Shown one piece after another: positions 2-32,613 of a DNA stretch of 38,410 nucleotides. The stretch is from Hyphomicrobium sp. (GTDB taxonomy: Bacteria; Pseudomonadota; Alphaproteobacteria; Rhizobiales; Hyphomicrobiaceae), in contig JASBSU010000034.1 of the NCBI GenBank assembly GCA_030148725.1, positions 1 through 38,410 on the forward strand. Reading direction: 5' to 3'. The notes beneath the pieces were generated by a model, which was not told the origin of the DNA, made no database searches, and worked only from the letters and a program-made list of their open reading frames with translations. The first letter of the stretch is position 1. Every line of letters begins with the position of its first letter. The position numbers and the translations under genes are program-made.

Positions 2-2287
2 TTCTCGGTCCCGCCGAACCCGTACGTCCAGCGTCAGCATGACGACGACGCGCCCGTGGCGCGCGACGCCGCGTTGGTGATGCAGCGCGCGCTCAGCGTT
101 GTATCTGGAACCGACCCGTTTTTCGACGCCATCAGCGAGACCGCGGACGAATACGTCCTGTTCGGCCGCGGCACGTCCTGGGTCACCTACACTCCTGAAT
201 TCGCAATCCGCGAGTCCGACACCAAGTCGCGCCTCGTTGACGACGAGGAGCCGCCGGAGAACGCTTTCGCCGACGCGGACAGAGATGGCAAGCGCCCGCG
301 TTACGAGGTCCGCACGGACAACGAGGGGCGCTACTACCAGGAGCAGTACGAGTACAAGGCCAACGAGCGCATGGTGCTCGAGTCCGTTGGCCTCAAAGAC
401 TTCCTGCATGGTCCGGCCACGCGCTGGCGTCACGTGCCGTGGATCGCGCGCCGCGTTCCCATGCTGCGCAGCGAGCTGATCAAGCGCTTCGGCAAGGAGA
501 TCGGCAGTAAGGTGCCCCTTACTGCGCGTGAGACGTCCAACCCGCGCCACAAAAGCGCGAACACGGACGACTTCAAGGGTCAGTTCCTCCGCGGCGTCGT
601 TTACGAGATCTGGGATCGCGTCGAGCGCAAGATTATCTGGGTGTGCCCCGATTATCTCGATGCCGTCCTCGACGAGAAAGAGGATGCGCTCGAACTCGAA
701 GACTTCTTCCCGTGCGCCAAGCCAATGTTTGGCACCATGACGAACGACACGCTTCTGCCGGTGCCGGATTACACGCAGTGGCAGGACGTGGCGATCGAGC
801 TGGACGAAGTCACGTTCCGCATCTCGTTGCTGACGGACGCGCTTCGCATTGCGGGCGTCTACGACGAGGACGCTGGCGATGATCTGAAAAAGATCACGAG
901 CCAGACCCGCGGGAACATCATGATTCCTGTGAAGAACTTCGGCCGCTTTCAGGACAATGGGGGCCTGGCAAAGGCGATCGAGTTTTTGCCGCTCGATGCG
1001 ATCATCAAGACGCTGCGCGAACTCTACAACGTGCGCGGCCAGCTCGTTCAGGAGCTGTACGAAGTCACGGGCATCAGCGACATCGTGCGCGGTGCCAGCG
1101 ACCCGCGCGAGACCGCGTCTGCGCAGAAGCTGAAAGGCAACTTCGCGAATGCGCGCCTCAAGGAGCGCCAGCTCGTTGTTGCTCGCCATGTTCGCGAAGT
1201 GCTCCGCATCATGGCGGAGATCATTTGCTCGCTCTACAGCGAGGACACCATCAAGAAGATGTCGGGCGCCGAGAGCTTCATGCTCATTGACGACCCGGCT
1301 CGCCCCGGCGCCAAGGTGTTCGACGAGGCTCGCTGGGCCGCAACGATGGAGCTGCTGCGCGACGAACCGCTGCGCGTGCTCCAGGTCAAGATCGACACCG
1401 ACACGCTCGCTGACGAAGCAATCACGTCTGAGCGCCAGGAAGCGACTGAATTCCTGACGACCATCAGCACGTACATGCAGAACGGCGCAGCCATGCTGCA
1501 GCAGGCTCCGAATGCAGGGCCGCTGTTCGCCAAGATGCTCATGTTCGCAGTCCGCAAGTTCAAGGTCGGCCGCGGCCTCGAAGCTGAGATGGAGCGCATG
1601 GTCGACCAGCTTACGAAGACCGGCCTCGGCGCCCCGCAGGGCGAGGGCGAGGGCGGCGGTGAGTCTGGCATGAATCAGCTGGAGCACAGCATCGAGCAGC
1701 AGCGCCTGGCGCTCGACCAGCAGAAGCTGGAAATCGACAAGATGAAGCTGGAGCTGGAGAAGCAGAAGCTCGGCATCAGCGCCAACAAAGAGCAGAGCGC
1801 AGCCGGCCATCGCGAGAAGGATCTGGCGATTAAGGAATTCACGGCTGTCGAGAACGTGCGGCTCAAGGACAAGCAGATCGACACGCAGGCGGCTGGCCAG
1901 CAGGCACAGATCGCCGTGCAGCAGGAGGCACAGCAGCACGATGCAGCACTCAGCGAGCAAGCACTGCGGCATGACCAGGCCATGCGCGAGGAGGAGTTTG
2001 TTGCTGGGCGTAGCGACGCCGAGCGCGCGGCCACGCAGCACGATCGCGAGTTTGCCGCCGGCCGACAGGATGCGGCGCATGCCGCGCACCATCAGGAGCG
2101 GGAGTTTGCGGCGACTCGTGAGGACGTTGTGCATGAGCGCACTGCTGCAAACGAGCAGCGCGCCTTCGATAATCGCGAGCGCGTGGCTGAACGCAAGCAG
2201 GCCAACTCCAATGCTGCCGCTGACCGCAAGGTGAAGGCGACCCAGGCGAAGGCAAAGGCTGCGAAGCCGGCCAAGCCCAAGCAGTAA
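2..2287 (+). CDS. Phage portal protein, 5' end cut by window
   Basis: The reading frame is open to the first bases of the window, so the gene starts upstream. A GTG at 56 is internal. About 760 residues are visible. The N-terminal two thirds (with segments such as DEYVLFGRGTSWVTY and LYEVTGISDIVRGASDPRE) match podoviral portal proteins, the dodecameric ring through which DNA is packaged and ejected. The last 220 residues are a long Q/E/A/K-rich helical stretch with heptad-like LDQQKLEIDKMKLELEKQKL, probably a barrel or coiled coil extending into the capsid. The C-terminus is basic (KAKAAKPAKPKQ). A palindrome lies in the coding sequence at 505 and another covers the stop codon. Identity comes from family patterns and position. 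Confidence 0.85.
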   Translation, partial: FSVPPNPYVQRQHDDDAPVARDAALVMQRALSVVSGTDPFFDAISETADEYVLFGRGTSWVTYTPEFAIRESDTKSRLVDDEEPPENAFADADRDGKRPRYEVRTDNEGRYYQEQYEYKANERMVLESVGLKDFLHGPATRWRHVPWIARRVPMLRSELIKRFGKEIGSKVPLTARETSNPRHKSANTDDFKGQFLRGVVYEIWDRVERKIIWVCPDYLDAVLDEKEDALELEDFFPCAKPMFGTMTNDTLLPVPDYTQWQDVAIELDEVTFRISLLTDALRIAGVYDEDAGDDLKKITSQTRGNIMIPVKNFGRFQDNGGLAKAIEFLPLDAIIKTLRELYNVRGQLVQELYEVTGISDIVRGASDPRETASAQKLKGNFANARLKERQLVVARHVREVLRIMAEIICSLYSEDTIKKMSGAESFMLIDDPARPGAKVFDEARWAATMELLRDEPLRVLQVKIDTDTLADEAITSERQEATEFLTTISTYMQNGAAMLQQAPNAGPLFAKMLMFAVRKFKVGRGLEAEMERMVDQLTKTGLGAPQGEGEGGGESGMNQLEHSIEQQRLALDQQKLEIDKMKLELEKQKLGISANKEQSAAGHREKDLAIKEFTAVENVRLKDKQIDTQAAGQQAQIAVQQEAQQHDAALSEQALRHDQAMREEEFVAGRSDAERAATQHDREFAAGRQDAAHAAHHQEREFAATREDVVHERTAANEQRAFDNRERVAERKQANSNAAADRKVKATQAKAKAAKPAKPKQ
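505..524. repeat. Dispersed palindrome, copy 1 (8-base spacer)
   Basis: CAGTAAGGTGCCCCTTACTG: perfect 8-base arms around TGCC, inside the portal coding sequence. It is the only copy with an 8-base gap between the GTAA and TTAC cores. Confidence 0.7.
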
Positions 2288-2299
2288 CGGTGTTTACCG
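2282..2299. repeat. Dispersed palindrome, copy 2 (6-base spacer)
   Basis: CAGTAAcggtgtTTACCG. It contains the portal stop codon (TAA, 2285 to 2287) and ends one base before the GTG start of the next gene. Confidence 0.8.
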
Positions 2300-2623
2300 G
2301 TGGCGGGTCCAAACCAGAGCGAGCTGCAGGCTGTAATCCGCCGGGAGACCGGCGAGGCGCAGCCATTCGAGGGCGACTGGCACGCCCTATGGGATCTGCG
2401 CGGTATCTCGCCGGGCACGTTCGACGAGCGACTCCTCGCCTACATCAACTTCAAGCTCGGTACGAGCTACAAATCGCTGAACACAGCGCAGATCGCAATG
2501 GCCCGACTGCTCGGCGTTCGATCCTGGCACGAAGTCACTGAGCTGTACGGCATCTCCTATGCGCTCCAGTGGGCGGGCAACGACCTTGCCTGGGGCTCCT
2601 ACGATCTTGAGTGGGTGTTTTAA
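2300..2623 (+). CDS. Small phage protein of unknown function
   Basis: 107 residues beginning at GTG 2300, directly after palindrome copy 2. No good Shine-Dalgarno is visible, so translation may be coupled to the portal gene or start further in. The stop TAA overlaps the next start (TAATG). The sequence is mildly acidic with no Cys pattern and no membrane segment. Residues 40 to 75 (ERLLAYINFKLGTSYKSLNTAQIAMARLLG) look helical. The C-terminus is rich in W/Y (WAGNDLAWGSYDLEWVF). I do not recognise the family. Its place between portal and fibre suggests a virion or assembly role, which is inference. Confidence 0.75.
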   Translation: MAGPNQSELQAVIRRETGEAQPFEGDWHALWDLRGISPGTFDERLLAYINFKLGTSYKSLNTAQIAMARLLGVRSWHEVTELYGISYALQWAGNDLAWGSYDLEWVF

Positions 2624-4296
2624 TGGCCTCCCGTGACCTGCGTAGCCTTACGCCGATCAGTAGTGCCGGCGAATTGAACGATGCCGCCATCGTATTCGGC
2701 GCCTTGTCTGCCGGCGCGGACGAGCCGTCAACATATGAGCTTGGCGCGCTCCGCGACTTCATAAATGCCGACCGCGTCAAGGCGCCATCGGAGTCGACCA
2801 CAGGAGCCATCCCGCGCTACGTCGACACCACGGGCAAGGAAATCGGTGCATCTGACGCACACGTGGATGCGGACGGAAACATCACGTCGCCTGGTGCTAT
2901 CGCTTCGCAGACGCGCAAGCTCGATGTCCACGACGACATCAAGCTGCAGGCGTCTGTACCCGATGCGCCAGCTGCAGGGTACGTGCGGCTGTTCGCGCGC
3001 GAAGTGGGTGGCGTGACGCGCATCGGCATCATCGACGAGAACGAGGCAGTAACGGAGCTTACTGGCTTGCTCGGCGACGTCTTCGGGCCTGGCTCAGCCG
3101 TCACGGACGGTCACGCCGCAGTGTTCGATGGCGTGACAGGCAAGCTGCTCAAGTCTGCTGGCGCCGCGCCGTCGTTGGTTGGTCACAACCACGACAGCTC
3201 GTACTACACGAAGACGCAGATCGACACCGCACTCAGCGGCAAGTCAGACACCAGCCATGATCACAACTCGATTTACTACACGAAGACGTTGCTCGATGCT
3301 GGCCAGCTCGACGGGCGCTATTACACTGAGGCGGAAGTAGACTCGCTTCTCAGCGGGAAGCAGGCAGCGCTCGCCTACGCGCCGGAGGACGTTGCCAACA
3401 AAGACACCGATACGACGCTCGCGGCGAACAGCGACACGAAGTACCCCAGCCAGAAGGCTATCAGGGCGTACGTCGATGCGCGCATCAATGACCTGATCAA
3501 CGCCGCGCCGGGCACGCTCGACACGCTGGGCGAGATCGCTGCCGCGCTCGAAGACGCAGACGACACGGTGGCGGCGCTCACAGCGACTGTCGTTGGCAAA
3601 CTGGCCAAGTCCAGCAACCTCAGCGACCTGACGAACGCTGCGACAGCTCGCGCCAATCTCGGCGTTGCGATCAACGCTGATGTGCAGGCATACAGCGCCA
3701 ACCTGACGACATTTGCTGGCATTGCGCCATCTGCGAATGCGCAATCGCTACTCGGCGCCGCCAACTACGCCGCGATGCGCGCGCTGCTCGATCTTGAGGC
3801 TGGAACCGACTTCTACAGCGTCGCTGCGGCGGATGCTGCTTTCGTGCCAGTGGCACGGGCTGCGACCGCCGGCTCTGGCCTCACAGGCGGCGGCGACCTT
3901 AGTGGCGACATCAGCTTCTCGATGTCCGCTAATCAGCGCACCGGCAGCATTGTCGTGACGATCGGTGATGGCAGCAATGCGATCACGACGTCGCCAGCCG
4001 TGAAGGGCTATCTACCTATTAGCTTTGCCGGCACTCTGACCGGATGGGCCATTGTTGCCGATGCGAGCGGCAGCGCAGTGGTTGATGTGTGGAAGGCTGC
4101 AGGCTCCGTCCCGACCAACTCCGACAGCATCGCCGGCAGCGAAAAACCGACACTCTCAGCGGCGCAGCTCGCGAGCGACGCATCACTGACGACGTGGACA
4201 ACGTCGTTTGCCGCCGGAGACATCTTCGGCTTCGAGGTCGAGTCTGCCTCCACTGTGAAGCAGATCACCATCACCCTCAGCTTCACTAAGACCTGA
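2623..4296 (+). CDS. Tail fibre protein
   Basis: 557 residues. The ATG at 2623 overlaps the previous stop (TAATG). Residues around 190 to 250 carry the tail-fibre repeat HNHDSSYYTKTQIDTALSGK, SHDHNSIYYTK and GRYYTEAEVDSLLSGK. The two HxH motifs (HNH, HDH) resemble the metal-binding HxH motifs of trimeric fibre needles. These are followed by NSDTKYPSQKAIRAYVDARI and LDTLGEIAAALEDADDTVAA, patterns typical of T4- and lambda-type fibre shafts. The C-terminal 120 residues are beta-rich and probably form the knob. It is expected to be a trimeric receptor-binding appendage. The stop TGA overlaps the ATG of the glycine-rich gene, so the two are translationally coupled. Palindrome copy 3 lies within it. 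Confidence 0.85.
   Translation: MASRDLRSLTPISSAGELNDAAIVFGALSAGADEPSTYELGALRDFINADRVKAPSESTTGAIPRYVDTTGKEIGASDAHVDADGNITSPGAIASQTRKLDVHDDIKLQASVPDAPAAGYVRLFAREVGGVTRIGIIDENEAVTELTGLLGDVFGPGSAVTDGHAAVFDGVTGKLLKSAGAAPSLVGHNHDSSYYTKTQIDTALSGKSDTSHDHNSIYYTKTLLDAGQLDGRYYTEAEVDSLLSGKQAALAYAPEDVANKDTDTTLAANSDTKYPSQKAIRAYVDARINDLINAAPGTLDTLGEIAAALEDADDTVAALTATVVGKLAKSSNLSDLTNAATARANLGVAINADVQAYSANLTTFAGIAPSANAQSLLGAANYAAMRALLDLEAGTDFYSVAAADAAFVPVARAATAGSGLTGGGDLSGDISFSMSANQRTGSIVVTIGDGSNAITTSPAVKGYLPISFAGTLTGWAIVADASGSAVVDVWKAAGSVPTNSDSIAGSEKPTLSAAQLASDASLTTWTTSFAAGDIFGFEVESASTVKQITITLSFTKT
3047..3064. repeat. Dispersed palindrome, copy 3 (6-base spacer)
   Basis: CAGTAAcggagcTTACTG: perfect 6-base arms, inside the tail-fibre coding sequence. 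Confidence 0.7.
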
Positions 4297-5294: not shown

Positions 5295-5303
5295 GCGCTC
5301 GAA

Positions 5304-5332
5304 GAAAACCACACAACCCCGCGTGATAAAAT
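5304..5332 (+). promoter_or_regulatory. Phage late promoter, member 1
   Basis: GAAAAC at 5304 and TAAAAT at 5327 are separated by 17 bases, with an upstream TG giving an extended -10. The block GAAAACCAC...CCGCGTG is shared with the promoter before the capsid gene (8012 to 8040), with the same 23-base offset. It lies just after the glycine-rich gene and upstream of 5428. Confidence 0.6.
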
Positions 5333-5338
5333 CACTTT

Positions 5339-9800: not shown

Positions 9801-9801
9801 G

Positions 9802-15023: not shown

Positions 15024-15042
15024 CAGTAACAGGTGCTTACTC
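15024..15042. repeat. Dispersed palindrome, copy 6 (7-base spacer)
   Basis: CAGTAAcaggtgcTTACTC. It ends at the base before ATG 15043, and its spacer supplies the likely ribosome-binding site (CAGGTG). Confidence 0.8.
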
Positions 15043-16779: not shown

Positions 16780-18914
16780 TGGCCGGTTGGAAGATCCTCG
16801 ACGACGACGCGTCAACTCCCGCGAAGGGGTGGCGCGTCGTCGATGAATCGTCGTCTATCGCTCCGGCTGTCACGGAGCCATCGCTGGCACAGCGCGGGCT
16901 CGATGCCGCGAAGACTGTTGCCGGCAAGGTTGCCGATACCGTTGGGACAATGATCCCAGGCGTCGCGGTGGCGAAGGCGCTCTACAATTACGATCCAGAG
17001 ACTGCTACCGGCATGATGCGCGCGGCAGCATCGGGCGCGACGTTCAACGCATCCGAGCGCGCCGAGGCCGCCGTGCGCGCGGCTACCGGCGACAAGAGCT
17101 ACGACGACAATCTGGAGCAGATCCGCAAGGAGCAGGAGGCGTTCCGCGAGGACTCGCCGGTCCTCGCTATGGGCTCCGAGCTGGCCGGCGGCATCGCCAT
17201 GCCCGGCGGCGCGGTCATCAAGGGCGGCAAGTACGTTGCGGACGTGACGCGCGGCGCCCTGCGTGCCGGCGGAGCTTCGCGCCGTGTAGCCAACGCAGTA
17301 GGCACTACTGCTGGCAGCGTTGCCGCGGGCGGTGCGTTCGGCGGCGCGGCAGGCGCCGGCAACACCAAGGATTTCACTGACGTCGGACAGGTGGCGTCGG
17401 ACGTGGGCTGGGGCACCGGGACCGGAGCCGTGCTCGGGCCGGCGCTTGAGCGCGGCGCCAACCTCGTGTGGGGCGGCGCGAAGGCGGCCGGTCGCTTTGT
17501 CGACGATGCCGGGCGGCGCGTCTACGAGGCTGTCGGCGGTGACGCTTCGACTTCGGCAACGCGGCTGCTCGCCGATGCCGTGGAGGACAAGGGCGTCGCC
17601 CTACTCCCAGGCCAGCGCCGTGGCCGAGCAGGCACGGGCGCGGCTGGGCTCGACCAGGAAGTGGCCAACGCCGCAGTTCCGGGCGTGCAGAACTCGCTCG
17701 CCATTGCCAACCCTCGCGTCGCCGCCCTCGCCGAGGAGCTTGGCGCTGAGCGTTGGATGCCGAACGCGCCGTACGAGCAGTTCGCGCGGCGCAATCTCTT
17801 CAATCAGACCAGCCGTGTCTCACAGGGCGTGGCCGACACACTCAATGGGGCGCCCGTCGATCACCGCACGTTCATGGATGCGCTGGAGACAGGCGCCACC
17901 AGGGCACAGGACGCCACGTATGCACGGATTCGTCAGGGCCAGATCGGCGGCGGCACCGGCAACATGCGTGTCTCCAATCTCCGCGCGGTCGTCGACGAAA
18001 ACCCCGCGCTTGCACGGCATCTGCAGGAAGCACTCGACCAGACCGTCGCAGACCCTAGCGTCGCATTCACCCGTGCTGACGCCGAGCGCATCCTCGACGG
18101 CGACTTCCTGCGCACTGACAACATGCACCCCGCCGTCGTCGAGCGCCTTTACAGCAACCTGACGAGTGCAACGCATTCGGGAGATGGCGTTGCGCGTGGG
18201 CTACTGACGCAGCTGCAGAACCGCCTTGGCCAGACGACCAAGGGGCGGGCCATGCTGGACGTCAAAGAGCGTCACGCAAACGCATTCGCCAAGCGGGACG
18301 CTGCTCATGAGGGCGAGGCGATCTGGGGCAAGCAGGGCGCGTCTCGTGACGCGGCTATGCGCGCTCGCAACAACAACCCTAACGCCGAAGCGCGCGACGC
18401 GTTTCGGGAAGCCGCAGCCGGCGGCGCCGGTCAGCGCATCGCTGGCGACCAGGGCACGTTCGCGCGCCCGCAGAACCTCGTCGGCAGTCCCGAGAACCGC
18501 GCCACGATGGAGGAGCTTTTCGGGGCGCCCAATACGCAGCGCGCGCAGAGCCTCATTGAGCGCGAAGGCAACGTCCACGACGTGTCTCGCCGCATGTTCG
18601 AGGCGCGCACGAATGGCAACAGTATGCCGCCGGATGCGATCGCGAACGCGCTCAAAATGGCGGTGCAGTGGAAGTTCACGCCGAGCGTTGCGATCATGAA
18701 CACGTGGTCGCGCGTTATGCGTGGCGTCACCAAGCCACGCGGCGCCGCGGCAGCCGACATCGCACTCAACCAGGGCGACCAGGGCATCGCGCGAGTGCGT
18801 GCGGAGCTGGCACGCCGCGATGCAATCCGTCAGCGCGCGCCAGAAACCGCCCGTCGTGCTGGTGCATACTCACAGCTGCTCGCCGAACAGCTTGGTGTCT
18901 ACGGCAGCCAGTAA
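16779..18914 (+). CDS. Large internal virion / DNA-ejection protein
   Basis: 711 residues, with the start overlapping the preceding stop. The N-terminus is short and charged (GWKILDDDASTPAKGWRVVD), as in many podophage ejection proteins. Residues about 120 to 235 are Gly/Ala-rich with weakly hydrophobic stretches (LAGGIAMPGGAVIKGGKYVA; VGTTAGSVAAGGAFGGAAGA) that may insert into the host envelope. The C-terminal half is helical and rich in R/N/A (LDVKERHANAFAKRDAAHEG). This fits the last and largest of three proteins ejected ahead of DNA. No transglycosylase or protease motif was found by eye. Its stop codon lies in palindrome copy 7. Confidence 0.68.
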   Translation: MAGWKILDDDASTPAKGWRVVDESSSIAPAVTEPSLAQRGLDAAKTVAGKVADTVGTMIPGVAVAKALYNYDPETATGMMRAAASGATFNASERAEAAVRAATGDKSYDDNLEQIRKEQEAFREDSPVLAMGSELAGGIAMPGGAVIKGGKYVADVTRGALRAGGASRRVANAVGTTAGSVAAGGAFGGAAGAGNTKDFTDVGQVASDVGWGTGTGAVLGPALERGANLVWGGAKAAGRFVDDAGRRVYEAVGGDASTSATRLLADAVEDKGVALLPGQRRGRAGTGAAGLDQEVANAAVPGVQNSLAIANPRVAALAEELGAERWMPNAPYEQFARRNLFNQTSRVSQGVADTLNGAPVDHRTFMDALETGATRAQDATYARIRQGQIGGGTGNMRVSNLRAVVDENPALARHLQEALDQTVADPSVAFTRADAERILDGDFLRTDNMHPAVVERLYSNLTSATHSGDGVARGLLTQLQNRLGQTTKGRAMLDVKERHANAFAKRDAAHEGEAIWGKQGASRDAAMRARNNNPNAEARDAFREAAAGGAGQRIAGDQGTFARPQNLVGSPENRATMEELFGAPNTQRAQSLIEREGNVHDVSRRMFEARTNGNSMPPDAIANALKMAVQWKFTPSVAIMNTWSRVMRGVTKPRGAAAADIALNQGDQGIARVRAELARRDAIRQRAPETARRAGAYSQLLAEQLGVYGSQ

Positions 18915-18927
18915 ACGGGAGTTACCG
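18909..18927. repeat. Dispersed palindrome, copy 7 (7-base spacer)
   Basis: CAGTAAacgggagTTACCG. It contains the stop TAA (18912 to 18914) of the ejection gene, and its spacer holds GGGAG, the ribosome-binding site for ATG 18931. Confidence 0.85.
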
Positions 18928-22965: not shown

Positions 22966-22984
22966 CAGTAACGCGCCGTTACCT
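22966..22984. repeat. Dispersed palindrome, copy 8 (7-base spacer)
   Basis: CAGTAAcgcgccgTTACCT in the gap before the lysozyme gene. It is flanked by direct repeats AAGTGACACCA (about 22949) and AAGTGACATCA (about 22990). Confidence 0.8.
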
Positions 22985-24122: not shown

Positions 24123-24987
24123 GCAGCAGCATCGGGTTGAGCTGATAATCAGTGCAGCCGGCCTTCATGAGGTCGTGCGCGAGCGCGCATTTGTGCTTGT
24201 CGCAACCCCACGCACCATCTGCGAGCGCTCGCGAGTGTTCGCACGTTCGGCAATTGCGCTCAGGAACCGCGCCCTCATGGCAGAAGCCTTTGTGGTCGCA
24301 GAAGCGGCACTTGAAGTAGTCCGGGTTATTCGAGATCCGCGGCAGTAACACGCGTTTACCGATGATCATTGAGCCCTTCTCAAGCAGCCGCTCGACGTAA
24401 GAGGCGTCGTAATCGACGTACTCCTTCCACTTCTCGCTGTTGTCCTTGTTGGTGAAGCTGTAGACGGCGACTTCGAGCCCAAATACGTGCATGTAGAGCT
24501 GCATCTGCGCGTAGTGCTCCGGCTTTGCTGCCGCCACGCCGTACTTCTTGGTTTTGTTGAACGACTTGTTGTTGTGCGACTTCATCTCCAGCAGCATCCA
24601 GGGACCACTAACGACGCGGTCGCGGCCGATGCCGTCGAGATAGCCCTTGCAGTGACCATCGAGCACCTTCGCCTGCCACTGCTTCGTAGGGCGAGCGGGG
24701 TCCTTCTCGATGACCTCCCAGCCGATGCGCTTAAGGTCGCGGATAAGCTCGTCTTCGGCGCGCTTGCCGGCCTCGAATAGGCCGAGCATCCGGCCGTCGA
24801 ATTTACGCGGCGCCGTCACCCACATCCACGCGAGCTGCACAGCGCGTCCGCATTCGTCGCCAATTGAGCTTGGACGGATGCTCCACGGAAGCCCGTCGCC
24901 TTCGTTGTCAGCCTCATACGACTTGTAGATGGCGTCGACGATCTCTTCGACGGTGCGCCGCCCGTGATAGCTCTGCTGCTCGCTCAT
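24040..24987 (-). CDS. PD-(D/E)XK nuclease, Cas4/RecB-like with Cys cluster
   Basis: 315 residues. The start at 24987 (MSEQQSYHG) is preferred over 25056 because AGGGCGA precedes it. Asp118, Glu134 and Lys136 (YLDG...LLEMKS) form the PD-(D/E)XK active site, followed by the QMQLYM motif of exonucleases. Cys46 (GDECGR) plus KCRFCDHKGFC match the four-cysteine iron-sulfur layout of Cas4 and AddB. More cysteines follow (NCRTCEHS, CDKHKC). It is last in the - strand recombination operon after a Sak4-like ATPase and a DUF669-like protein, so a 5'-3' end-resecting role is likely. Palindrome copy 9 lies within it. Confidence 0.82.
   Translation of the reverse strand: MSEQQSYHGRRTVEEIVDAIYKSYEADNEGDGLPWSIRPSSIGDECGRAVQLAWMWVTAPRKFDGRMLGLFEAGKRAEDELIRDLKRIGWEVIEKDPARPTKQWQAKVLDGHCKGYLDGIGRDRVVSGPWMLLEMKSHNNKSFNKTKKYGVAAAKPEHYAQMQLYMHVFGLEVAVYSFTNKDNSEKWKEYVDYDASYVERLLEKGSMIIGKRVLLPRISNNPDYFKCRFCDHKGFCHEGAVPERNCRTCEHSRALADGAWGCDKHKCALAHDLMKAGCTDYQLNPMLLPTAEETASSRRSRSRAPAAPVCEDQEA
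24343..24361. repeat. Dispersed palindrome, copy 9 (7-base spacer)
   Basis: CAGTAAcacgcgtTTACCG, inside the - strand nuclease coding sequence. Confidence 0.7.
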
Positions 24988-25848: not shown

Positions 25849-25867
25849 CGGTAACGTGCGTTTACTG
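25849..25867. repeat. Dispersed palindrome, copy 10 (7-base spacer)
   Basis: CGGTAAcgtgcgtTTACTG. It covers the stop codon of the Sak4-like gene (TTA on +, 25862 to 25864) in the gap before the DUF669-like gene. Confidence 0.8.
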
Positions 25868-26716
25868 CGCTACTGCCATCGCTCCGTTGTGCTGGACGTT
25901 GGGGTTGCCGTGCTGCGCAAAGATGGGCGCGAAGTACGGGATGTGGGACGCAAACTGAGCGAATCCTGCGTAGGGGTTGCCCTGCGGGATCACGATGTAC
26001 GGCGGCATGCCGTAGCGGTTCTTGGCGTTGTGGGTCGCTGCGTTCTGCAGATACAGACGCGCGTCGTCCTCGCCGATCGCCTTGCCAGGGCCGGAGCGCT
26101 GACCCTCTTTCTTGACCACAGTCACGGGGTACGACATGAACCCGACGATGTCGGCGCGCTGCGTCAGAACCTCGATCGCCTGCGGCGGCAGCATGACGTC
26201 GTAGCGTGCATACTCGTCAGTATCCGGCGGCTTGATCTTCACCTGGCGCACGTGGCCCAGTAGTGTGACGGCGATGTTGCGCTGCTCTTTGAGCTTGAGA
26301 ATGTCGTCGTTGATGTAGGCGTACTTCTCGGCGATCACCTTGTCGCCGCGGCCGAAGGCACCGAAGCCGTGCTCGCCCATGTTGTTGCGACCGTCCGGCA
26401 GCTGCCACTTCTGCTCGACACACACTTCCGTGGTGAGCTTCTGATTGAGCGCCGACACCGAGTCGATCACGACGTGGTGGTACGGGTGCTGCTGCTCGCG
26501 AAGCTGCTGCAGCAGTTGGCGGATCTGCGCCAGCGTCTCGATCTGGAAACGCGGGATGTTGCGCAACATCTCCGGCATGCCCTTCTCGACATCCAGGAAC
26601 AGAGTGTTGGGAGGCATGGCGGCGAAGGTGGACTTGCCGATGCCGTTCTGGCCGTAAAGGATCGTGTAGGGCGCTACACCAGTGGCGCCGACTTGGGGCT
26701 TGTTCAGATCGAACAT
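25862..26716 (-). CDS. Sak4-like RecA-fold ATPase (AAA_24)
   Basis: 284 residues. The start at 26716 overlaps the stop of the upstream gene (TGATG), so I prefer it to an earlier in-frame start at 26758. Walker A GQNGIGKST is at residues 22 to 30 and Walker B VVIDS at 82 to 86, with an AAA_24/Sak4 pattern throughout (LFLDVEKGMPEM; ITVLLGHVRQ-type segment near residue 165). Sak4 proteins are small RecA-like annealing or recombination ATPases acting with an SSB. The C-terminal 50 residues are N/P/Q-rich. Followed by DUF669-like and nuclease genes, it forms the core of the phage recombination system. Confidence 0.8.
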   Translation of the reverse strand: MFDLNKPQVGATGVAPYTILYGQNGIGKSTFAAMPPNTLFLDVEKGMPEMLRNIPRFQIETLAQIRQLLQQLREQQHPYHHVVIDSVSALNQKLTTEVCVEQKWQLPDGRNNMGEHGFGAFGRGDKVIAEKYAYINDDILKLKEQRNIAVTLLGHVRQVKIKPPDTDEYARYDVMLPPQAIEVLTQRADIVGFMSYPVTVVKKEGQRSGPGKAIGEDDARLYLQNAATHNAKNRYGMPPYIVIPQGNPYAGFAQFASHIPYFAPIFAQHGNPNVQHNGAMAVAQ

Positions 26717-27375
26717 CAGGCAGACTTTCTCTTTCTCGACTTCGGTTTCTTTGACCAACGGGGGTTGGTGGCATTGCGTTTGCGCTCGACAATCGCCTGG
26801 TCGCGCTTCGTGCCGACGCGCTTGCCCGTCAGTAGATGCTCCGGCAGGCTCGTGCTCTTGCGCGCCTTGTCGACCTGACGGTTGGACATAGTCGCAAGCG
26901 AGCCGCGCTCGATCGTCTCGACAACCTTCGCGGCGAACCGATCATCCACGCCACGCTCACGCAGCAGCGTGTCGATGTCCGCGAGGCGAATGCCGCGCTT
27001 CTGATTACGCTCGATGACGTAGCGCGAGCCGCGCAAGTAATCGTTGAGCCTCTTGGCGATTCCCATAACGACTGACGGGTCGGGCATATCGACGTCAGGA
27101 CGGTGGTCCCAGGTGTGCTCCGCGAGTTGGTTGCGAGATAACCAGCGAGGGAACGCCGCGATCAGCGCGCTCAAAACGTCCAGCTCATTGCGCGACAGCG
27201 CAAGCGGCTGGGAGTCGTCAAGACGCACAGTCTTGTTCACGACGTCGACGACGAGGTCATAACGCGTTGGCCAAGGCTGGCGACAAACCCAGCAACAAAA
27301 CACACCATCAACCTTGCCGACGCGCGGCAGGGCGACCAGTGGGCGCTTGTTGCGAGTGACGATTGGCTCGATCAA
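26716..27375 (-). CDS. Stand-alone OmpR/PhoB-type winged-helix protein
   Basis: 219 residues; its start overlaps the dNMP kinase stop by 4 bases (ATGA) and its stop overlaps the Sak4 start. The N-terminus has Cys27, Cys28 and Cys31 (CCWVC) near RQPWP. Residues about 45 to 132 fit the OmpR/PhoB effector domain: LALSRNELDVLSALIAAFPR, WLSRNQLAEHTWDH as the first helices, and DPSVVMGIAKRLNDYLRGSR then YVIERNQKRGIRL as recognition helix and wing. There is no receiver domain. The last 45 residues are very basic (KKPKSRKRKSA). It is a likely DNA-binding regulator. Target unknown; the dispersed palindrome is one candidate. Confidence 0.72.
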   Translation of the reverse strand: MIEPIVTRNKRPLVALPRVGKVDGVFCCWVCRQPWPTRYDLVVDVVNKTVRLDDSQPLALSRNELDVLSALIAAFPRWLSRNQLAEHTWDHRPDVDMPDPSVVMGIAKRLNDYLRGSRYVIERNQKRGIRLADIDTLLRERGVDDRFAAKVVETIERGSLATMSNRQVDKARKSTSLPEHLLTGKRVGTKRDQAIVERKRNATNPRWSKKPKSRKRKSA

Positions 27376-27986: not shown

Positions 27987-28693
27987 GCCTGGTCCCCACT
28001 GGTGCGTTCATCGACCACAATGGACGAAGAACGCACCAAAGTCAACGGTGCTGTTGCGTTTATTGTACGCGGCGGGCAAAAAATTTTGCGCCCCTTCTTC
28101 TTCTCAACCACGAGCATCTTGAACTGCCCTAGGTCCATTTGCTCCGCGAGCTTTAGCTGTCGCTCCATCTCCGCAGGCGCATCCGACAGCGCTGCCGCGG
28201 TGTGCATCGTTGCGATTGCGTCACTCTCGTTGTCGTCAAACGGCAGATACCCACGCCCGACGCATGCCGCCTCGACTTCCTCCTTGCTGGCATTACCCTT
28301 GCCGGCAAAGCGCGTTTTGATTGTCTGGATCGGGATGGGTAAGCATGCCTTACCCGTGCGCGCGCACCACGCCATCACCATCGCGCGATAGCCGTTCCAG
28401 AGCGTGGTTTGGCGGCCTTTCGTGCCACCATTGACCTGCTCGAACGTCACAAGGTCGAACCCGCCGCACGCCTGATCCAGCGCGAACATGAATCGCTCAA
28501 GCGCAATGAAGCGCTCGCCGTCCTGGTATTCCCTGATGCCGCTCTCGTTGTATAGCTCAAATACGCCGCTGTCCTTGTGCCGCTCGGGGCCACTGGGGAC
28601 AAACACGCACCAGCCGGTGCGCCGGCCGAGGTCCAGGGCGAGAATCTTTCGCCCCGACAGCGTGCCTACGGGGCACGCATCACGCTTACTCAC
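27836..28693 (-). CDS. RuvC-like Holliday junction resolvase with anomalous extension
   Basis: GTG start at 28693 with GGAAGGG upstream. Residues 16 to 185 are an RNase H-fold resolvase: Asp21 (ILALDLGRRTGW), Glu85 (TFEQV) and the DDNESDAIA acidic motif with Asp158. Phage RuvC-like enzymes are usually under about 200 residues, but this frame runs to 285. The last 75 residues are Ser/Arg-rich and read through an operator region and 150 bases of the dNMP kinase gene in another frame. A T6 run (28078 to 28083 on +) lies at the point of change. One T fewer would give a stop at 28060 to 28062. The true product probably ends there, by mutation, sequencing error or slippage. Confidence 0.72.
   Translation of the reverse strand: MSKRDACPVGTLSGRKILALDLGRRTGWCVFVPSGPERHKDSGVFELYNESGIREYQDGERFIALERFMFALDQACGGFDLVTFEQVNGGTKGRQTTLWNGYRAMVMAWCARTGKACLPIPIQTIKTRFAGKGNASKEEVEAACVGRGYLPFDDNESDAIATMHTAAALSDAPAEMERQLKLAEQMDLGQFKMLVVEKKKGRKIFCPPRTINATAPLTLVRSSSIVVDERTSGDQACLSDSAANARRASRKGRSSSSQNTASSVPSSQKRSRASRKTHSSSPTST
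27999..28061. promoter_or_regulatory. Operator cluster and promoter upstream of dNMP kinase
   Basis: Three TGKTGCGTT-type sites: CTGGTGCGTTC (27999, +), GAACGCACCA (28029, inverted) and CTGTTGCGTTT (28051, +). The first two form an inverted pair. On the - strand TTGACT (28045 to 28040) is 17 bases from CATTGT (28022 to 28017), with one operator in the spacer. This matches the repressor-region layout but with a weak -10. Confidence 0.55.
28337..28355. repeat. Dispersed palindrome, copy 11 (7-base spacer)
   Basis: GGGTAAgcatgccTTACCC: 7-base arms, with flanking G/C instead of CA/TG, inside the RuvC-like gene. Confidence 0.65.
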
Positions 28694-28712
28694 AATTACC
28701 CTTCCCGCCCAT

Positions 28713-28776
28713 TTGACGAATCTATTGGTTTACGATAGACCGAACAGATTGTACAGTAAACGCACCAGTAGGTCAA
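28713..28776. promoter_or_regulatory. Overlapping divergent promoters with repressor operator
   Basis: The - strand promoter is TTGACC (28776 to 28771), 17 bases, TACAAT (28753 to 28748), driving the recombination operon. Its spacer contains the operator CTGGTGCGTTTAC. On +, TTTACG (28729) with 17 bases to TACAGT (28752), or TTGACG (28713) with 17 bases to TAGACC (28736), can drive the repressor. The operator would overlap its transcription start. This is the classic immunity-region layout. Confidence 0.7.
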
Positions 28777-28791
28777 CGGAGAGACACAGAC

Positions 28792-29556
28792 ATGCCGCGC
28801 CCCAGAGGTGTAACTTTTGTCGATCAGCTCATGCAGGCACGATCGGTCGCCCCCGCGCGTACCGGGAAGGTCGGCAGAAACGTGCGTCTACAGGAAGGCT
28901 GGCGCGATCGACTGCTCAAGCACCTGCCTGCGGATGTCTCCTATCGGCTGATTGCCGAGCGGGCGCTTATCGCACCAGGGCGCTCCCTCTCTCACACGAC
29001 AGTGCGCGCTGCTCTCTTGGGATCAGGGACCATAACGCTCGACACACTGGCGGCCATCTGCGATGCGCTTGGCGTCGACATCGCGCAGGTCATCACAGGG
29101 AACGCGGACGTGCGCACGATGGCGCCCGCGAGCGTGGCCCTGCCAGCTGGCCTCAGCATCACGGTGTTGCCGATCGTTGATATTGCCGACGCGGCAAGGT
29201 GGAGCGAGGTCGCCGCAGACTCAGACAAGAAAACCGAGATGTACTTCATCGAGTCGGCCAACGCAGAGGGACTCATGGTGGCGCGCATCACCGATGATTC
29301 GATGGCTCCTGAGTACCTGCAGGGCGACCTCGTGACGTTTCGCATCGGGGCTCCTCCTTCACCAAAGGTCCCCGCGATCGTGCAGGTCGAACCGCACCGC
29401 GAAGCCATGATGCGAATCATGGAAGAGACCGACGAACGCGTGAAGCTGCAGGCGCTGAACGAGGATTATGGATCAGCAACAGTGTCCGCCAAAAAGATCA
29501 GCTTCCTGGCGCATGTCGTCGGACACACGCGCGAGACTCTGTTGACGAATCCATAA
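28792..29556 (+). CDS. C1/LexA-like phage repressor (HTH + S24 peptidase)
   Basis: 254 residues, with GGAG about 10 bases before ATG. Residues about 38 to 103 hold an XRE-like helix-turn-helix (LSHTTVRAALLGSGTITLDT followed by LAAICDALGVDI). Residues about 148 to 245 are an S24/LexA peptidase domain: RITDDSMAPEYLQGDLV carries the nucleophile Ser170, and RVKLQALNEDY contains Lys218 as the candidate general base. An Ala119-Gly120 pair in the linker could be the self-cleavage site. Such repressors keep the prophage silent and are inactivated in the SOS response. It is divergent from the recombination operon. A bidirectional-looking terminator follows downstream. Confidence 0.87.
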   Translation: MPRPRGVTFVDQLMQARSVAPARTGKVGRNVRLQEGWRDRLLKHLPADVSYRLIAERALIAPGRSLSHTTVRAALLGSGTITLDTLAAICDALGVDIAQVITGNADVRTMAPASVALPAGLSITVLPIVDIADAARWSEVAADSDKKTEMYFIESANAEGLMVARITDDSMAPEYLQGDLVTFRIGAPPSPKVPAIVQVEPHREAMMRIMEETDERVKLQALNEDYGSATVSAKKISFLAHVVGHTRETLLTNP

Positions 29557-29683
29557 TTGGTGCGGATACTGTCCACGTCTGGAGCGTAAACGAAACAGTG
29601 CCGCTTGAGCAGCGGTCAACCCTGTAACGTCAGGAGGTTATTGATGTAGCTACAAAGCCCGTTGAAAACGGATCTTGGTATTC
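29557..29683 (+). other. Repressor 3' intergenic segment with start-stop element
   Basis: No gene. It contains a perfect AGGAGG (29632) ideally spaced to ATG at 29642, immediately followed by TAG, so translation would start and stop at once. In another frame the same DNA reads VATKPVENGSWYSAPGWLEP without a start codon, so a decayed small gene is possible. A small hairpin CCGTT/AACGG lies at 29659 to 29671. Confidence 0.4.
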
Positions 29684-29720
29684 AGCGCCCGGATGGCTTG
29701 AGCCGCCTCCGGGCGCTTTC
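29684..29720. terminator. Terminator between repressor and convergent early block
   Basis: 10-bp perfect stem AGCGCCCGGA (29684) / TCCGGGCGCT (29708), with an inner GGC/GCC extension, followed by TTCATTT on +. It lies between the convergent repressor and 29723 genes. Confidence 0.75.
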
Positions 29721-29722
29721 AT

Positions 29723-30874
29723 TTATCCGGCGTATGCAGGCGTCAGGCGCAGCACGGTTCCGCGACTGGACGACTCACGCAGCATCAGCCCGGCCTCCAC
29801 AGCCTCGCGGATCGCATGCCCGATGGTGACCTGGTGCATCCCGAGCTGCTTCTCCCACTCGCTGTACGTTCCGCGCAGCTCGCCGCCGCGCTGCGCGACA
29901 TACCTCAGCATCTGCTCTGCGCGCCCCGTCACAGCATGCAGTGCCTTGCTGCGCTGTGCGGGCACAGACGGCACAGAAGCGCGCCGCGGCTGAGCCGGAG
30001 CTGCTGTGCTGTGCAGCACAGTCGCTGGCTGCGCGGGTAACGTCGGTTTACTGACAGGCAGCGCAGTAGGCTGCGCTGCATCACCCGTGCCCGGGGTGTC
30101 TGTGTCTGCGCTGCGCTGCGCCGGTACGGCGGGGACAGCGGGCGCAGCAATGAGCTGTGCGAGCCCAGCGCAGAGCGGCGCAGCGAGGACAACCAGCGCC
30201 ACATACAGCGCAGCCAAGCTCAGCTCGACCTTGTCGGGGTCTGCGCCTACCCAGCTCTGCATGAACGCAGCCGCTGCGCTGCGCTGCTGTACGACAGGCT
30301 GCACAGCTGCGCGCCGCTGCTTGGCGGTGTCGCGCCGGACAGTGAGCGTGTCGCGCTTGGTGGCGCGATCCAGCTCGACGGCGAGCGTCTTGTTGCGAAC
30401 TGTCTTGCAGCCCTCACGCTCGCACTTGTCGACGTCGTCTTGGATGTCTGACGTCGCCCGCACATCGTCGTAATCGGCCAGGGCTCGCTCCGCGCGATCG
30501 AGCGCAGCCTGGGCGGCATCCCGCTCGGTCGTGAAGCGCTTGGATGCGTCGATGCGGTGCGCTTCCTGCAGGCTGTGCTTGCTCCAGGCGTAGTTGAGGC
30601 CGTTGCTCCCAGCGTTGCCGATGCAAATTGCAGCCAGTGCGGCAGCACATGCTGCAACGAACCAGCGACGGGCCTTGAGGCCGGCGCAGAGATAGTGCGC
30701 GCCAAAGAGCGCGCCGATCTCGATCACGCCGAGTGAGGCCACTGCTGTGTAGAAATCGACGCCCACCAGCTGGGCCGTCGTGGTAGTCCAGCCGGAGGCA
30801 ATTGCAACCCCGGCGAACAACAAAGAAATGGCTTGAAGCACGCGCGTGCGCGCGCTACCAGAACACTCAGACAC
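29723..30874 (-). CDS. Membrane protein with coiled coil and C-terminal winged helix
   Basis: 383 residues. GTG start at 30874 with GGAGG 6 bases upstream. Hydrophobic segments lie near residues 12 to 30, 37 to 63 and 70 to 92. A charged coiled coil spans about 105 to 200 (DAAQAALDRAERALADYDDV), with a Cys pair (DKCEREGCK). A fourth hydrophobic segment is at about 222 to 246 (LAALYVALVVLAAPLCAGLA), followed by a Pro/Ala linker. A helix-turn-helix-like end comes near residues 315 to 378 (RAEQMLRYVAQRGGELRGTY; GMHQVTIGHAIREAVEAGLM). It appears to tether a DNA-binding domain to the inner membrane. No family is recognised. Possible roles are DNA anchoring, partition or superinfection exclusion. 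Palindrome copy 12 is within it. Confidence 0.72.
   Translation of the reverse strand: MSECSGSARTRVLQAISLLFAGVAIASGWTTTTAQLVGVDFYTAVASLGVIEIGALFGAHYLCAGLKARRWFVAACAAALAAICIGNAGSNGLNYAWSKHSLQEAHRIDASKRFTTERDAAQAALDRAERALADYDDVRATSDIQDDVDKCEREGCKTVRNKTLAVELDRATKRDTLTVRRDTAKQRRAAVQPVVQQRSAAAAFMQSWVGADPDKVELSLAALYVALVVLAAPLCAGLAQLIAAPAVPAVPAQRSADTDTPGTGDAAQPTALPVSKPTLPAQPATVLHSTAAPAQPRRASVPSVPAQRSKALHAVTGRAEQMLRYVAQRGGELRGTYSEWEKQLGMHQVTIGHAIREAVEAGLMLRESSSRGTVLRLTPAYAG
30035..30053. repeat. Dispersed palindrome, copy 12 (7-base spacer)
   Basis: GGGTAAcgtcggtTTACTG, inside the - strand membrane-protein gene, in the part encoding the linker. Confidence 0.65.
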
Positions 30875-30892
30875 GGGTAACCTCCGTTGTCG
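30875..30892. repeat. Degenerate palindrome over start of membrane-protein gene
   Basis: GGGTAAcctccgTTGTCG differs from consensus at two right-arm bases. It covers the GGAGG ribosome-binding site of the - strand gene starting at 30874, matching the placement of true copies. Confidence 0.35.
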
Positions 30893-30896
30893 ATAT

Positions 30897-30946
30897 GAAG
30901 GCCCCGGATAGCCGCCAAGCAGCCGGGGCCTTCGCTTATTGTACCA
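30897..30946 (-). promoter_or_regulatory. Promoter and 5' leader hairpin for 30874 gene
   Basis: On the - strand an extended -10 TGGTACAAT (TACAAT at 30943 to 30938) overlaps the end of the upstream gene. A perfect 11-bp inverted repeat GAAGGCCCCGG/CCGGGGCCTTC (30897 to 30933) would lie at the 5' end of the transcript. No U-run follows. Confidence 0.5.
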
Positions 30947-31148
30947 TCCCTCTTCGACGCTCAGCGCGCGCCTCAGATTCTCTCAGTTTGCGCCAGTTTC
31001 GCGACGTCGGAAGCTGACGCGGTGGCTTTGTCCCAGGCGAGCGCTGCGCCTTGGTGGTTGGCGCGCGTGCCGATGCGCTCTTGTTGAGCTGCAAGATGAC
31101 CCACCCAACAACCCCGAGCGACAGCAGCGCAATCGCGTCCCAGCTCAT
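30936..31148 (-). CDS. Small single-pass membrane protein
   Basis: 70 residues from ATG 31148, overlapping the lipoprotein stop by 4 bases (ATGA). Residues 4 to 22 are hydrophobic (DAIALLSLGVVGWVILQL), and the remainder is strongly basic with many Arg/Lys/Ser/Pro. The coupled lipoprotein plus membrane protein pair resembles spanin partners in size. However, the cytoplasmic-looking basic tail and the early-region position, far from the lysozyme, argue against that. An immunity or exclusion role is equally possible. Family not recognised. Confidence 0.6.
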   Translation of the reverse strand: MSWDAIALLSLGVVGWVILQLNKSASARAPTTKAQRSPGTKPPRQLPTSRNWRKLRESEARAERRRGMVQ

Positions 31149-31477
31149 TGCCTCACCGTGCACGTCGTCTGGCCGGTCACCCCGACCTTGTCGTTGCAGT
31201 TGACCTTGTAGCTCTGCGGCACGCCCGGAGCCGCCGTACGGGCAGTTGCCGCCGGGGCCGCCGAGTACGCCTGTCCCACGCTGCCGATCGCATTGCCGGC
31301 AGCCATCAGCGCGCCGGCCTCAGCAACGCGCTGCTGCTGTTTAAGGTCCGCGATGCGCACACAGCGATCGAAGGCCGACTGGTCGGTCAACTTCTGGCAC
31401 TCGGCCAAATCCATCCCGTGCCAGTCCGGCGCGCAAGCCGCGCATGCAATGACTGCGGTGGCGAATATCAGGCGCAT
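31145..31477 (-). CDS. Phage lipoprotein
   Basis: 110 residues. The N-terminal signal MRLIFATAVIACAACAPDWH has a lipobox-like VIAC or AAC, giving lipidation at Cys12 or Cys15. The mature part has Cys pairs (ECQK...FDRCVRI), a helical stretch and a Gly/Ala/Ser-rich region (LMAAGNAIGSVGQAYSAAPA), ending in NCNDKVGVTGQTTCTV. Its start overlaps the end of the upstream zinc-finger gene by 10 bases. Prophage lipoproteins in early regions often alter the host surface or exclude superinfecting phage, which is the likely but unproven role. Confidence 0.7.
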   Translation of the reverse strand: MRLIFATAVIACAACAPDWHGMDLAECQKLTDQSAFDRCVRIADLKQQQRVAEAGALMAAGNAIGSVGQAYSAAPAATARTAAPGVPQSYKVNCNDKVGVTGQTTCTVRQ

Positions 31478-32613
31478 ATCTTACCCCCGGTTGTGCTCAC
31501 AACATCGGTAGGTGATTCGTCGCTCGCGGCGAACAGGTCGAGCGCACCATCCACGCCAGCCTTGATGCGCTTGAGCTTGTCGCGGACCTTCACGCCGATG
31601 CGCCGCAGCTCTACCGGATCGTCGATGTCGTCGATGCTGCGGGCCGGTATCGCGCCGCGGTCCTGCAACCAGCGCACGAACAACGGGATCGGGTCAGCGC
31701 CGCGAGCGCGGTTCTCGATCCATGGCACCATGCGCAAGTTCTCGCGCACGTAGTCGCCGGCCGGGTCGATCTTATCCGGGCTCTGCTTGAACGGCCACGA
31801 GCCCACCCACCCCTTCGGCCTCTTGTAGAAGCGGTATCCATCCGCAATGGCCTTCGCGAGCAGCAGCTTCGTGTCGGCCTTCGACAGATGGACGCGCCGC
31901 CACGGGTTTGTGCGCTCGCCCTTCTGTTCCCACGACTTGCCGTCGCTACGGGCCTTTGCGCTGCGCATATCGCGGAGAAAGCCGTTCACCAGCTCGTCGT
32001 TGTCCTCAACTTCGAGCTGGGCCGGGTCCAGCGCCGCATGGGCTCGCGCCTGAGCCGCCAGGCGCTCATCGCGCAGCTGCTGCTTCTGCTCGCGCGTACG
32101 GGCGCCGCGACTTTGTCTGCGCACCTTGTCACCACCAGGCGTCTCGCCGTCGTTGGTCACAACGACTTTGTGGTCGGACTCAGTAATGACGATGACGGTG
32201 CTCTTGGGGACCGGTGGCACGAGCGCGCGCAAGTCACGCCCTGGGTCGCCGCCGCGCTTGTAGACCTCGACGCTGACGTCGGTCTGGGCGATGTTGCGCG
32301 TGGGGAGACCGAGATTGCGGCGGGCGAAGAATTCGATGGCGTTAGTGGCTGCCTCCCCCTTGTCAAGCTCGCCCCGCCTGACAGCTGTGAACACACGAGC
32401 GCCCCCGGTCGTGCACGCCCTGCAGTTTGACAGAAGTCGGCCGGAGCGAGGTTTTCCATCTTTGTGTGTGCAGGGCCTCGAATAGGGAAAATAGGCCCTC
32501 GTCTCGGGCCACTCCAGCTCGCAGCACTTGCACCGCTTGCGCGTCACCGCCTCGTCACCAGTAAACGCTGTTACTGGGCCTGAGCCGCCATCAACAACCC
32601 CCACAGACTCCAC
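31468..32613 (-). CDS. Zinc-finger / HNH-endonuclease-like protein
   Basis: 381 residues from GTG 32613 with AGAGGA 6 bases upstream; GTG 32547 with GGTGA is an alternative that would leave palindrome copy 13 outside the gene. The N-terminus has CKCCELEW and, about 40 residues later, SNCRACTTG, a likely zinc knuckle pair. A variable charged middle (residues 120 to 220) leads to FKQSPDKIDPAGDYVRENLR then MVPWIENRARGAD. This matches the closing strand of phage HNH nucleases (SvDRID-x-GY-x-x-gNv-x-x-v-x-x-x-N), but the usual His pair is not obvious. It is the first gene of the right early block, behind an operator-controlled promoter. Confidence 0.65.
   Translation of the reverse strand: MESVGVVDGGSGPVTAFTGDEAVTRKRCKCCELEWPETRAYFPYSRPCTHKDGKPRSGRLLSNCRACTTGGARVFTAVRRGELDKGEAATNAIEFFARRNLGLPTRNIAQTDVSVEVYKRGGDPGRDLRALVPPVPKSTVIVITESDHKVVVTNDGETPGGDKVRRQSRGARTREQKQQLRDERLAAQARAHAALDPAQLEVEDNDELVNGFLRDMRSAKARSDGKSWEQKGERTNPWRRVHLSKADTKLLLAKAIADGYRFYKRPKGWVGSWPFKQSPDKIDPAGDYVRENLRMVPWIENRARGADPIPLFVRWLQDRGAIPARSIDDIDDPVELRRIGVKVRDKLKRIKAGVDGALDLFAASDESPTDVVSTTGGKICA
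32559..32576. repeat. Dispersed palindrome, copy 13 (6-base spacer)
   Basis: CAGTAAacgctgTTACTG: perfect 6-base arms, near the start of the zinc-finger gene or just upstream if its start is 32547. It shares CAGTAAACGC with the repressor-region operator at 28755. It is the last copy before the attachment site. Confidence 0.75.

Follow-up and report, generated by a model that had tools for sequence, protein, structure and literature searches.

What reads the palindromes that are scattered through a prophage of Hyphomicrobium sp.? The window, i.e., the whole stretch of 38,410 nucleotides analyzed here (assembly GCA_030148725.1, contig JASBSU010000034.1, forward strand), carries 13 copies of GTAA-N6-8-TTAC (palindromes of the type CAGTAACGTGCGTTTACTG), where 0.10 would be expected from dinucleotide shuffles. 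A preliminary description, made from the sequence alone, had listed 13 palindromes as confined to the prophage and compared them with the stoperators of phage L5, which are sites bound by a repressor. All 13 are real, with each GTAA starting 2 bp inside the coordinate listed earlier, and the rough estimate of fewer than one site by chance agrees with the shuffles. The palindromes are very probably sites for a DNA-binding protein that the phage encodes, and probably form a genome-wide array for a dimeric protein other than its immunity repressor.

The window holds about half of the prophage, and the other half lies on another contig of the same genome (C50, 40,423 bp). The prophage spans ~69.5 kb, starting ~3.8 kb into C50 and ending at window position 32,866 in the right attachment site (attR). 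From its left end, C50 carries a DNA polymerase I-like gene, presumably a host gene, followed by tRNA-Arg(CCG), an integrase gene, many further genes, a terminase gene, and the start of the portal gene. No similarity was found between the two halves besides the attachment stretch. The whole 3.84-Mb genome contained 42 palindromes, 13 in the window, 19 on C50, and 10 elsewhere, which amounts to 32 palindromes in ~69.5 kb of prophage versus 10 in the remaining 3.77 Mb. Those 10 were spread over nine contigs, and the sole pair on one contig was ~23 kb apart. Shuffle means were 0.18 for the C50 part and 0.12 for the prophage part of the window, and the pattern read backward, used as a control, occurred 52 times in the 3.84-Mb genome. 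Confinement to the prophage holds, but the prophage extends onto C50 with 19 more sites. The 5.5 kb beyond attR, previously noted as empty, indeed has no palindrome; with 0.03 expected, this stretch is uninformative by itself.

A search of viral contigs identified one relative, a 66,876-bp contig in IMG/VR whose major head protein is 81% identical. It is broadly syntenic with C50 plus the window, with some genes unshared, and ends at the counterpart of the gene at 29723-30874. Compared with its portal protein, C50 and the window cover residues 31-113 and 137-873, so that ~23 residues are missing between the contigs; the assembly break lies inside the portal gene (window position 1, C50 position 40423), and the two contigs were treated as joined without a gap despite these missing codons. 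The relative carries 29 palindromes (shuffle mean 0.32), of which 17 have 6-bp and 12 have 7-bp spacers, and the backward control pattern matches once. GTAA was the most enriched of the four-base arms occurring as such palindromes in both phages, at 59.6 times expectation among 197 arms in the prophage and 52.8 times among 203 in the relative.

Persistence of the sites in related phages had been expected in the preliminary description, and in this one relative a partner was found at the matching place for 23 of the 31 comparable palindromes, where chance retention of all eight arm bases would account for ~0.8. Pairing followed gene order and was done by eye, the least certain pairs being 13160/9048 and 16577/12267 (C50/relative), and gene models were crude (longest or homology-trimmed frames). 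The 60-bp flanks of paired sites were 0.63 identical versus 0.53 in random pairs, spacer length differed in 11 of the 23 pairs, and spacers of equal length were 0 to 0.71 identical. The arms were thus kept, while spacers and flanks mostly were not. Furthermore, 56 of 58 half-sites in the relative had C at position +5, whereas the 64 half-sites of the prophage had A in 23, C in 24, and G in 17. Such a difference in concert between the phages points to a trans-acting protein.

This pattern bears on two other explanations. Position at gene junctions would suit linkers that promote the swapping of modules by homologous recombination, or the neutral remains of an ancient repeat family. However, the concerted change of inner bases and spacing at shared positions points to selection by a common factor, and the arms were kept while the flanks were near background; we regard linkers or relics as highly improbable. 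Alternatively, the palindromes might be recombination sites of the phage XerC-like tyrosine recombinase, a XerC-family protein whose counterpart in the relative is 78% identical. A layout of inverted arms flanking a 6-8 bp spacer would fit the core sites of tyrosine recombinases, and eight sites of the relative share one 14-mer. However, the arms are short, spacers differ between sites in the prophage, conservation reaches into the spacer in the relative, and with so many sites recombination would be expected to scramble the genome, which makes this role quite improbable. A DNA methyltransferase target was dismissed by reasoning, as the spacing varies from 6 to 8.

The spelling of the sites is more consistent with a protein dimer than with an RNA stem. 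In the window, eight palindromes have 7-bp spacers, four have 6-bp, and one has 8-bp, as counted before, and the ten copies described as having CAG on the left correspond to CA directly before GTAA in 10 of 13. The outer bases had been called nearly always complementary, which was not borne out for the first outer pair (6 of 13; second pair, 10 of 13). Instead, as a rule, GTAA is preceded by a purine and TTAC is followed by a pyrimidine, each side set separately. The half-site is roughly C-R-GTAA-(C/A/G), and the centres of facing half-sites are separated by 10 to 12 bp, or roughly one turn of the helix. At position -1, the two halves agreed in a fraction of 0.41 in the prophage versus 0.50 if independent, and 0.41 versus 0.45 in the relative; at +5, the values were 0.22 versus 0.34 and 0.93 versus 0.93. 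The absence of excess pairing at these positions suits two protein subunits on double-stranded DNA, not an RNA stem.

RNA hairpins or processing signals at gene ends would explain the bias toward gene ends described below, and would be in line with an excess of two-sided symmetry at position -4 in the prophage. One site of the relative (65628 on the reversed contig) lies between convergent genes inside a terminator-like hairpin, GCCCGGTAACATCAGTTACCGGGCTTTTT, followed by T. However, pairing at -1 and +5 shows no excess, and the first outer pair sets A against C in 8 of 32 prophage sites and 6 of 29 sites of the relative. Four consecutive T (or A, on the opposite side) lie within 20 bp of none of the 32 and one of the 29. 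We consider an RNA function scarcely credible.

Many of the palindromes are located at gene ends. Within 25 bp of the stop codon of a conserved gene, we found 13 of 32 prophage sites (7 of 19 on C50 and 6 of 13 in the window, with ~1.1 and 0.8 expected, or ~1.9 together) and 13 of 29 sites of the relative (1.7 expected). The TAA of GTAA or the TTA of TTAC is often the stop codon itself. Sites well inside genes, nine in each phage, were fewer than the 22.5 and 21.3 expected. In addition, the spacing of the palindromes is more regular than chance. The mean gap was 2,187 bp in the prophage and 2,285 bp in the relative, with coefficients of variation of 0.50 and 0.63, versus 0.92 and 0.93 under a null model that places an equal proportion of sites at gene junctions (P < 0.0002 and P = 0.0086). 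When only junction sites were considered (18 of 32 and 15 of 29), regularity was still seen in the prophage (P = 0.0068). No orientation relative to transcription was detected in a swap test of upstream against downstream half-sites (P = 0.65 in the prophage and 0.11 in the relative).

These positions would be compatible with transcription roadblocks, in which a phage protein other than the S24 repressor, e.g., the OmpR-type protein, halts or insulates transcription in both directions in a stoperator-like manner. The gene-end enrichment and the regular tiling fit such a role, and convergent junctions look over-represented, holding 4 of 32 and 4 of 29 sites when only 5 of 63 junctions are convergent in each phage. 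However, 9 of 32 and 9 of 29 sites lie well inside genes, and no orientation bias was found, whereas stoperators depend on orientation (PMC9283540). Roadblocks are possible but, in our view, unlikely.

A second, promoter-linked repeat family speaks against a link between the palindromes and the immunity repressor. The repeat TGCGTTTATTGTAC has 11 copies within two mismatches in the prophage (shuffle mean 0.4) and none in the relative, while CGACTCGCACTATA has seven copies within two mismatches in the relative (shuffle mean 0.1) and none in the prophage; at three mismatches both searches were near or partly at chance. Repeats of the two phages occupy several corresponding places: two of these, ahead of the portal gene and near 27.5 kb on C50, hold within two mismatches, and two others, ahead of the repressor gene and near window position 28055, need three mismatches in the relative. 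Repressor operators change in this manner when immunity changes, and the S24 repressors of the two phages are 43% identical. The promoter-linked repeats are probably the operator set of the repressor, and the replacement of TGCGTTTATTGTAC by CGACTCGCACTATA-like repeats looks like a natural swap of immunity operators. Since these repeats changed while the palindromes persisted, another factor most likely reads the palindromes, and the S24 repressor is probably not their binder.

The idea that the palindromes are stoperators of the S24 repressor does have points in its favour. The sites are dispersed, phage-specific, and palindromic, which suits a CI-type dimer; the operator of phage 434 has a similar 4-6-4 layout; and the repressor gene lies inside the prophage, with its presumed recognition stretch about as conserved between the phages as that of the membrane protein discussed below. 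However, the repressor promoter region has no full site, the nearest being at 28339 and 30037, and this and other promoters carry the different repeat family, which changed between the phages as immunity operators would. We therefore judge repressor stoperators improbable. The earlier likening to stoperators stands insofar as the palindromes are phage-specific dispersed protein sites, largely kept in the relative and enriched at gene ends, but its link to the immunity repressor is unsupported: the sites are symmetric without detectable orientation, and the operator-like repeats belong to the other family.

Which phage protein might bind the array? The predicted membrane protein encoded at 29723-30874 was ranked first, because the regular tiling, the sites inside genes, and the lack of orientation suit a structural over a transcriptional role, and because, among the candidates, it is the one of membrane type with a predicted DNA-binding domain. 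It had no Pfam, PHROG, NCBIfam, or PDB-sequence match at the limits used. Its last 79 residues were modelled as a winged helix with a predicted local distance difference test (pLDDT) score of 86.7 in the best of five models, and the best PDB match of this model was the C-terminal domain of CodY (E = 8.7e-4); the closest folds were CodY, ArsR, and MarR-type domains, with viral matches weaker. The protein is 69% identical in the relative and the C-terminal domain 56%. The predicted recognition helix reads QVTIGHAIREAVE in the prophage and GVTLGHAIKEAAA in the relative, and the wing SSRGTVLRLT is identical in both.

We tentatively suggest, at less than an even chance and partly from modelled structure, that this membrane protein binds the array and docks or organizes the phage DNA at the membrane. 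The C-terminal winged helix would grip the palindromes, which recur every ~2.2 kb along the entire phage genome, often where a gene ends and in other cases within one. A presumed operator repeat lies ~1.8 kb upstream, ahead of the leftward genes, and the protein may thus be made after induction or early in infection. Noc of Bacillus subtilis, a ParB-family protein that recognizes dispersed palindromic sites and reaches the membrane by an amphipathic helix, docks the Bacillus chromosome in a comparable way. The candidate here differs in having hydrophobic segments and a predicted winged helix and no ParB domain (no Pfam match). Another parallel is p16.7 of phage phi29, a phage-encoded integral membrane protein that organizes phage DNA at the membrane; we know of no dispersed specific sites for it. 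That the embedded protein pins the genome through palindromes every ~2 kb to serve its replication, segregation, or protection, and that the specificities of protein and sites drift together from one related phage to another, is a more doubtful extension.

Several observations weigh against this proposal. The membrane topology rests on hydropathy (four 19-residue segments, mean values 1.59 to 2.39), the model of the full-length protein is poor (pLDDT 43.6), and the models of the winged-helix domain, made from two sequences, range in pLDDT from 60.5 to 86.7. The co-occurrence of the array and the protein rests on two phages. The same residues occur at 8 of 13 positions of the presumed recognition stretch in the membrane protein, 7 of 13 in the S24 repressor, and 7 of 17 in the OmpR-type protein, which does not separate the candidates, and the XerC-like recombinase is better conserved than the membrane protein. 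A rigid dimer would not usually go with spacers that vary between 6, 7, and 8. Eight of the 31 comparable prophage sites lack a partner (C50 5192, 6522, 32422, and 36890; window 507, 3049, 24345, and 30037), as do 6 of 29 in the relative. The symmetry excess at position -4 in the prophage is 0.53 versus 0.29 if independent, with small excesses at -2 in the prophage (0.59 versus 0.54) and +6 in the relative (0.62 versus 0.60), and regularity among junction sites alone is weak in the relative (P = 0.078). Membrane tethering, one of the alternatives raised in the preliminary description, gains from the predicted winged helix and its conservation in the relative, but conservation does not single out the membrane protein. 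Judged on sequence, conservation is not decisive between the candidate binders.

No homologue of the membrane protein was found in phage records or plasmids (E up to 0.01), and a search of 385 genomes of the class (E up to 1e-4) yielded none in the 384 besides its own. Scans of viral contigs with the membrane protein, the OmpR-type protein, and a 1245-residue protein of C50 returned nothing, but were too insensitive, as the relative encodes all three. The major head protein had eight matches in 199 related genomes including its own, 11 among phage records, and only the one relative among viral contigs. One of the 11 phage records, ppBjS10J-1, had no GTAA palindrome in the whole record, and its strongest dispersed palindrome was CGGAT-N7-ATCCG with four copies. 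Around the head-protein match, G124, G138, and G074 had no sites, G169 had one, and G133 had two; G191 and G039 had none in the 3.4-kb loci available. Enriched palindromes in G124 and G138 turned out to be local repeats.

A terminase search of 397 genomes of the order gave seven matches including its own, and two of the six others (G380 and G177) share the terminase region only, with no site in the stretches examined. Among viral contigs, the terminase was found at 17 loci including the relative, and GTAA was absent from the top palindromes in 14 of the 16 others scanned. On two contigs with related terminases, small clusters of GTAC-N5-GTAC palindromes (L034:3206-3334 and L019:349-458) were observed, perhaps operators of other phages. 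Two further genome-contig scans found no close relative (no match in one, a single terminase at 30% in the other). The pattern RGTAACN4-6GTTACY occurred at most four times per genome in the 397 genomes of the order, which indicates no second array of the relative's type; it would detect only 3 of 32 sites of the type found in the prophage. A 14-mer scan of viral contigs returned at least 120 stretches, among which, in the matches listed, those of the relative were the clearest and several low-GC stretches had 3 to 5 sites versus 0.4 to 1.9 expected. Seven such viral records had one to four matches to GTAACN4-6GTTAC in 6 to 188 kb, none comparably dense.

Table 1 Features of the prophage discussed in the text (window coordinates unless C50 is given)
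Feature	Position	Strand	Description
Palindrome N8	507..522		Inside portal gene; no partner in relative
Palindrome N6	2284..2297		TAA is portal gene stop codon; partner in relative
Palindrome N6	3049..3062		Inside tail-fibre-like gene; no partner in relative
Palindrome N6	7597..7610		Gene junction; partner in relative
Palindrome N7	10703..10717		Gene junction; relative partner N6
Palindrome N7	15026..15040		Between stop codon and nearby ATG; relative partner N6
Palindrome N7	18911..18925		TAA is stop codon; relative partner N6
Palindrome N7	22968..22982		Upstream of endolysin gene; relative partner N6
Palindrome N7	24345..24359		Inside Cas4-like exonuclease gene; no partner in relative
Palindrome N7	25851..25865		TTA is stop codon of minus-strand Sak4-like gene; relative partner N6
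Palindrome N7	28339..28353		Inside RuvC-like gene; partner in relative
Palindrome N7	30037..30051		Inside membrane winged-helix gene; no partner in relative
Palindrome N6	32561..32574		Near prophage right end; past end of relative's contig, not comparable
Promoter-linked repeat TGCGTTTATTGTAC	28055..28068	+	Probable repressor operator
TGCGTTTATTGTAC-family repeat	28751..28764	-	Inside promoter-like TTGACC-N17-TACAAT adjoining repressor gene
TGCGTTTATTGTAC-family repeat, two mismatches	32649..32662	-	Ahead of leftward genes ending with 29723-30874
TGCGTTTATTGTAC-family repeats	C50 10630, 11946, 12015, 27538, 40159		
S24 (CI/LexA-like) immunity repressor	28792..29556	+	43% identical to that of relative
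First candidate binder (membrane protein)	29723..30874	-	383 residues; four hydrophobic segments and predicted C-terminal winged helix
Second candidate binder (OmpR-type protein)	26716..27375	-	OmpR-type winged-helix match; three cysteines near N-terminus
XerC-like tyrosine recombinase	C50 29599-30564 (L002:9599-10564)		XerC family, E = 3.4e-72, below curated cut-off
attR core	32814..32866		53 bp, 100% identical to 3' part of tRNA-Arg(CCG) at attL on C50

Other features of the prophage and its surroundings were also observed. The XerC-like recombinase is distinct from the integrase at the left attachment site (attL), its gene lies shortly before the packaging genes, and in both phages a palindrome lies at an equivalent position close to its start. 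The 1245-residue protein (L001:12047-15784 on C50) is 59% identical in the relative and its gene carries two palindromes; it had no PHROG match and only weak ATPase/helicase-like Pfam matches. To the right of attR, the stretch from 32990 to 38410 may be a further element located at this tRNA-Arg site. It contains another gene for a tyrosine integrase (32990-34309) and, on the minus strand, a PIN/HTH_17 pair at 35897-36954 resembling a toxin-antitoxin module.

Literature searches with four exact spellings of the relative's sites returned no paper; the variable spellings of the prophage sites were not searched. The closest likeness is with the Cluster O mycobacteriophages such as Corndog, in which 34 symmetric 17-bp repeats with no known function were reported, and whose authors infer a dimeric binder and argue against a role in transcription initiation (PMC4351075). 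More than 30 symmetric copies are spread over the genome, many intergenic and about a third inside genes, and are absent from the host genome (PMC4351075). The counts are alike, at least about 30 symmetric copies there and 32 and 29 here, and most positions are common to relatives, as for the 23 of 31 found here by eye with one relative. The Cluster O repeats, TGTTCGGNNNCCGAACA, differ in having invariant arms and a fixed 3-bp spacer, compared with the shorter variable half-site and 6-8 bp spacer here, and stable lysogens of those phages were not recovered (PMC4351075), whereas ours is an integrated prophage. Our data add regular spacing and a comparison with a relative whose promoter-linked repeats differ.

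Phage L5 and other Cluster A phages are temperate and have more than 20 repressor sites dispersed in the genome, many of which lie in short gaps between genes (PMC9283540). Dispersal in the phage is shared, with 32 sites in the prophage and 10 in the rest of the host genome. However, stoperators are described there as asymmetric 13-mers bound by a repressor monomer and oriented with transcription (PMC9283540), whereas the palindromes here are symmetric, have no detected orientation, and appear to be independent of the repressor.

Symmetric repeats dispersed through phage genomes were described, with no assigned function, at least as early as 2015 (PMC4351075). In the pair of phages compared here, two dispersed systems of one genome can be told apart, since the promoter-linked repeats change and the palindromes persist. 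This persistence makes repressor sites an unlikely explanation and leaves a short list of phage proteins. If the membrane protein does bind the palindromes, the array would be a viral counterpart of nucleoid docking.

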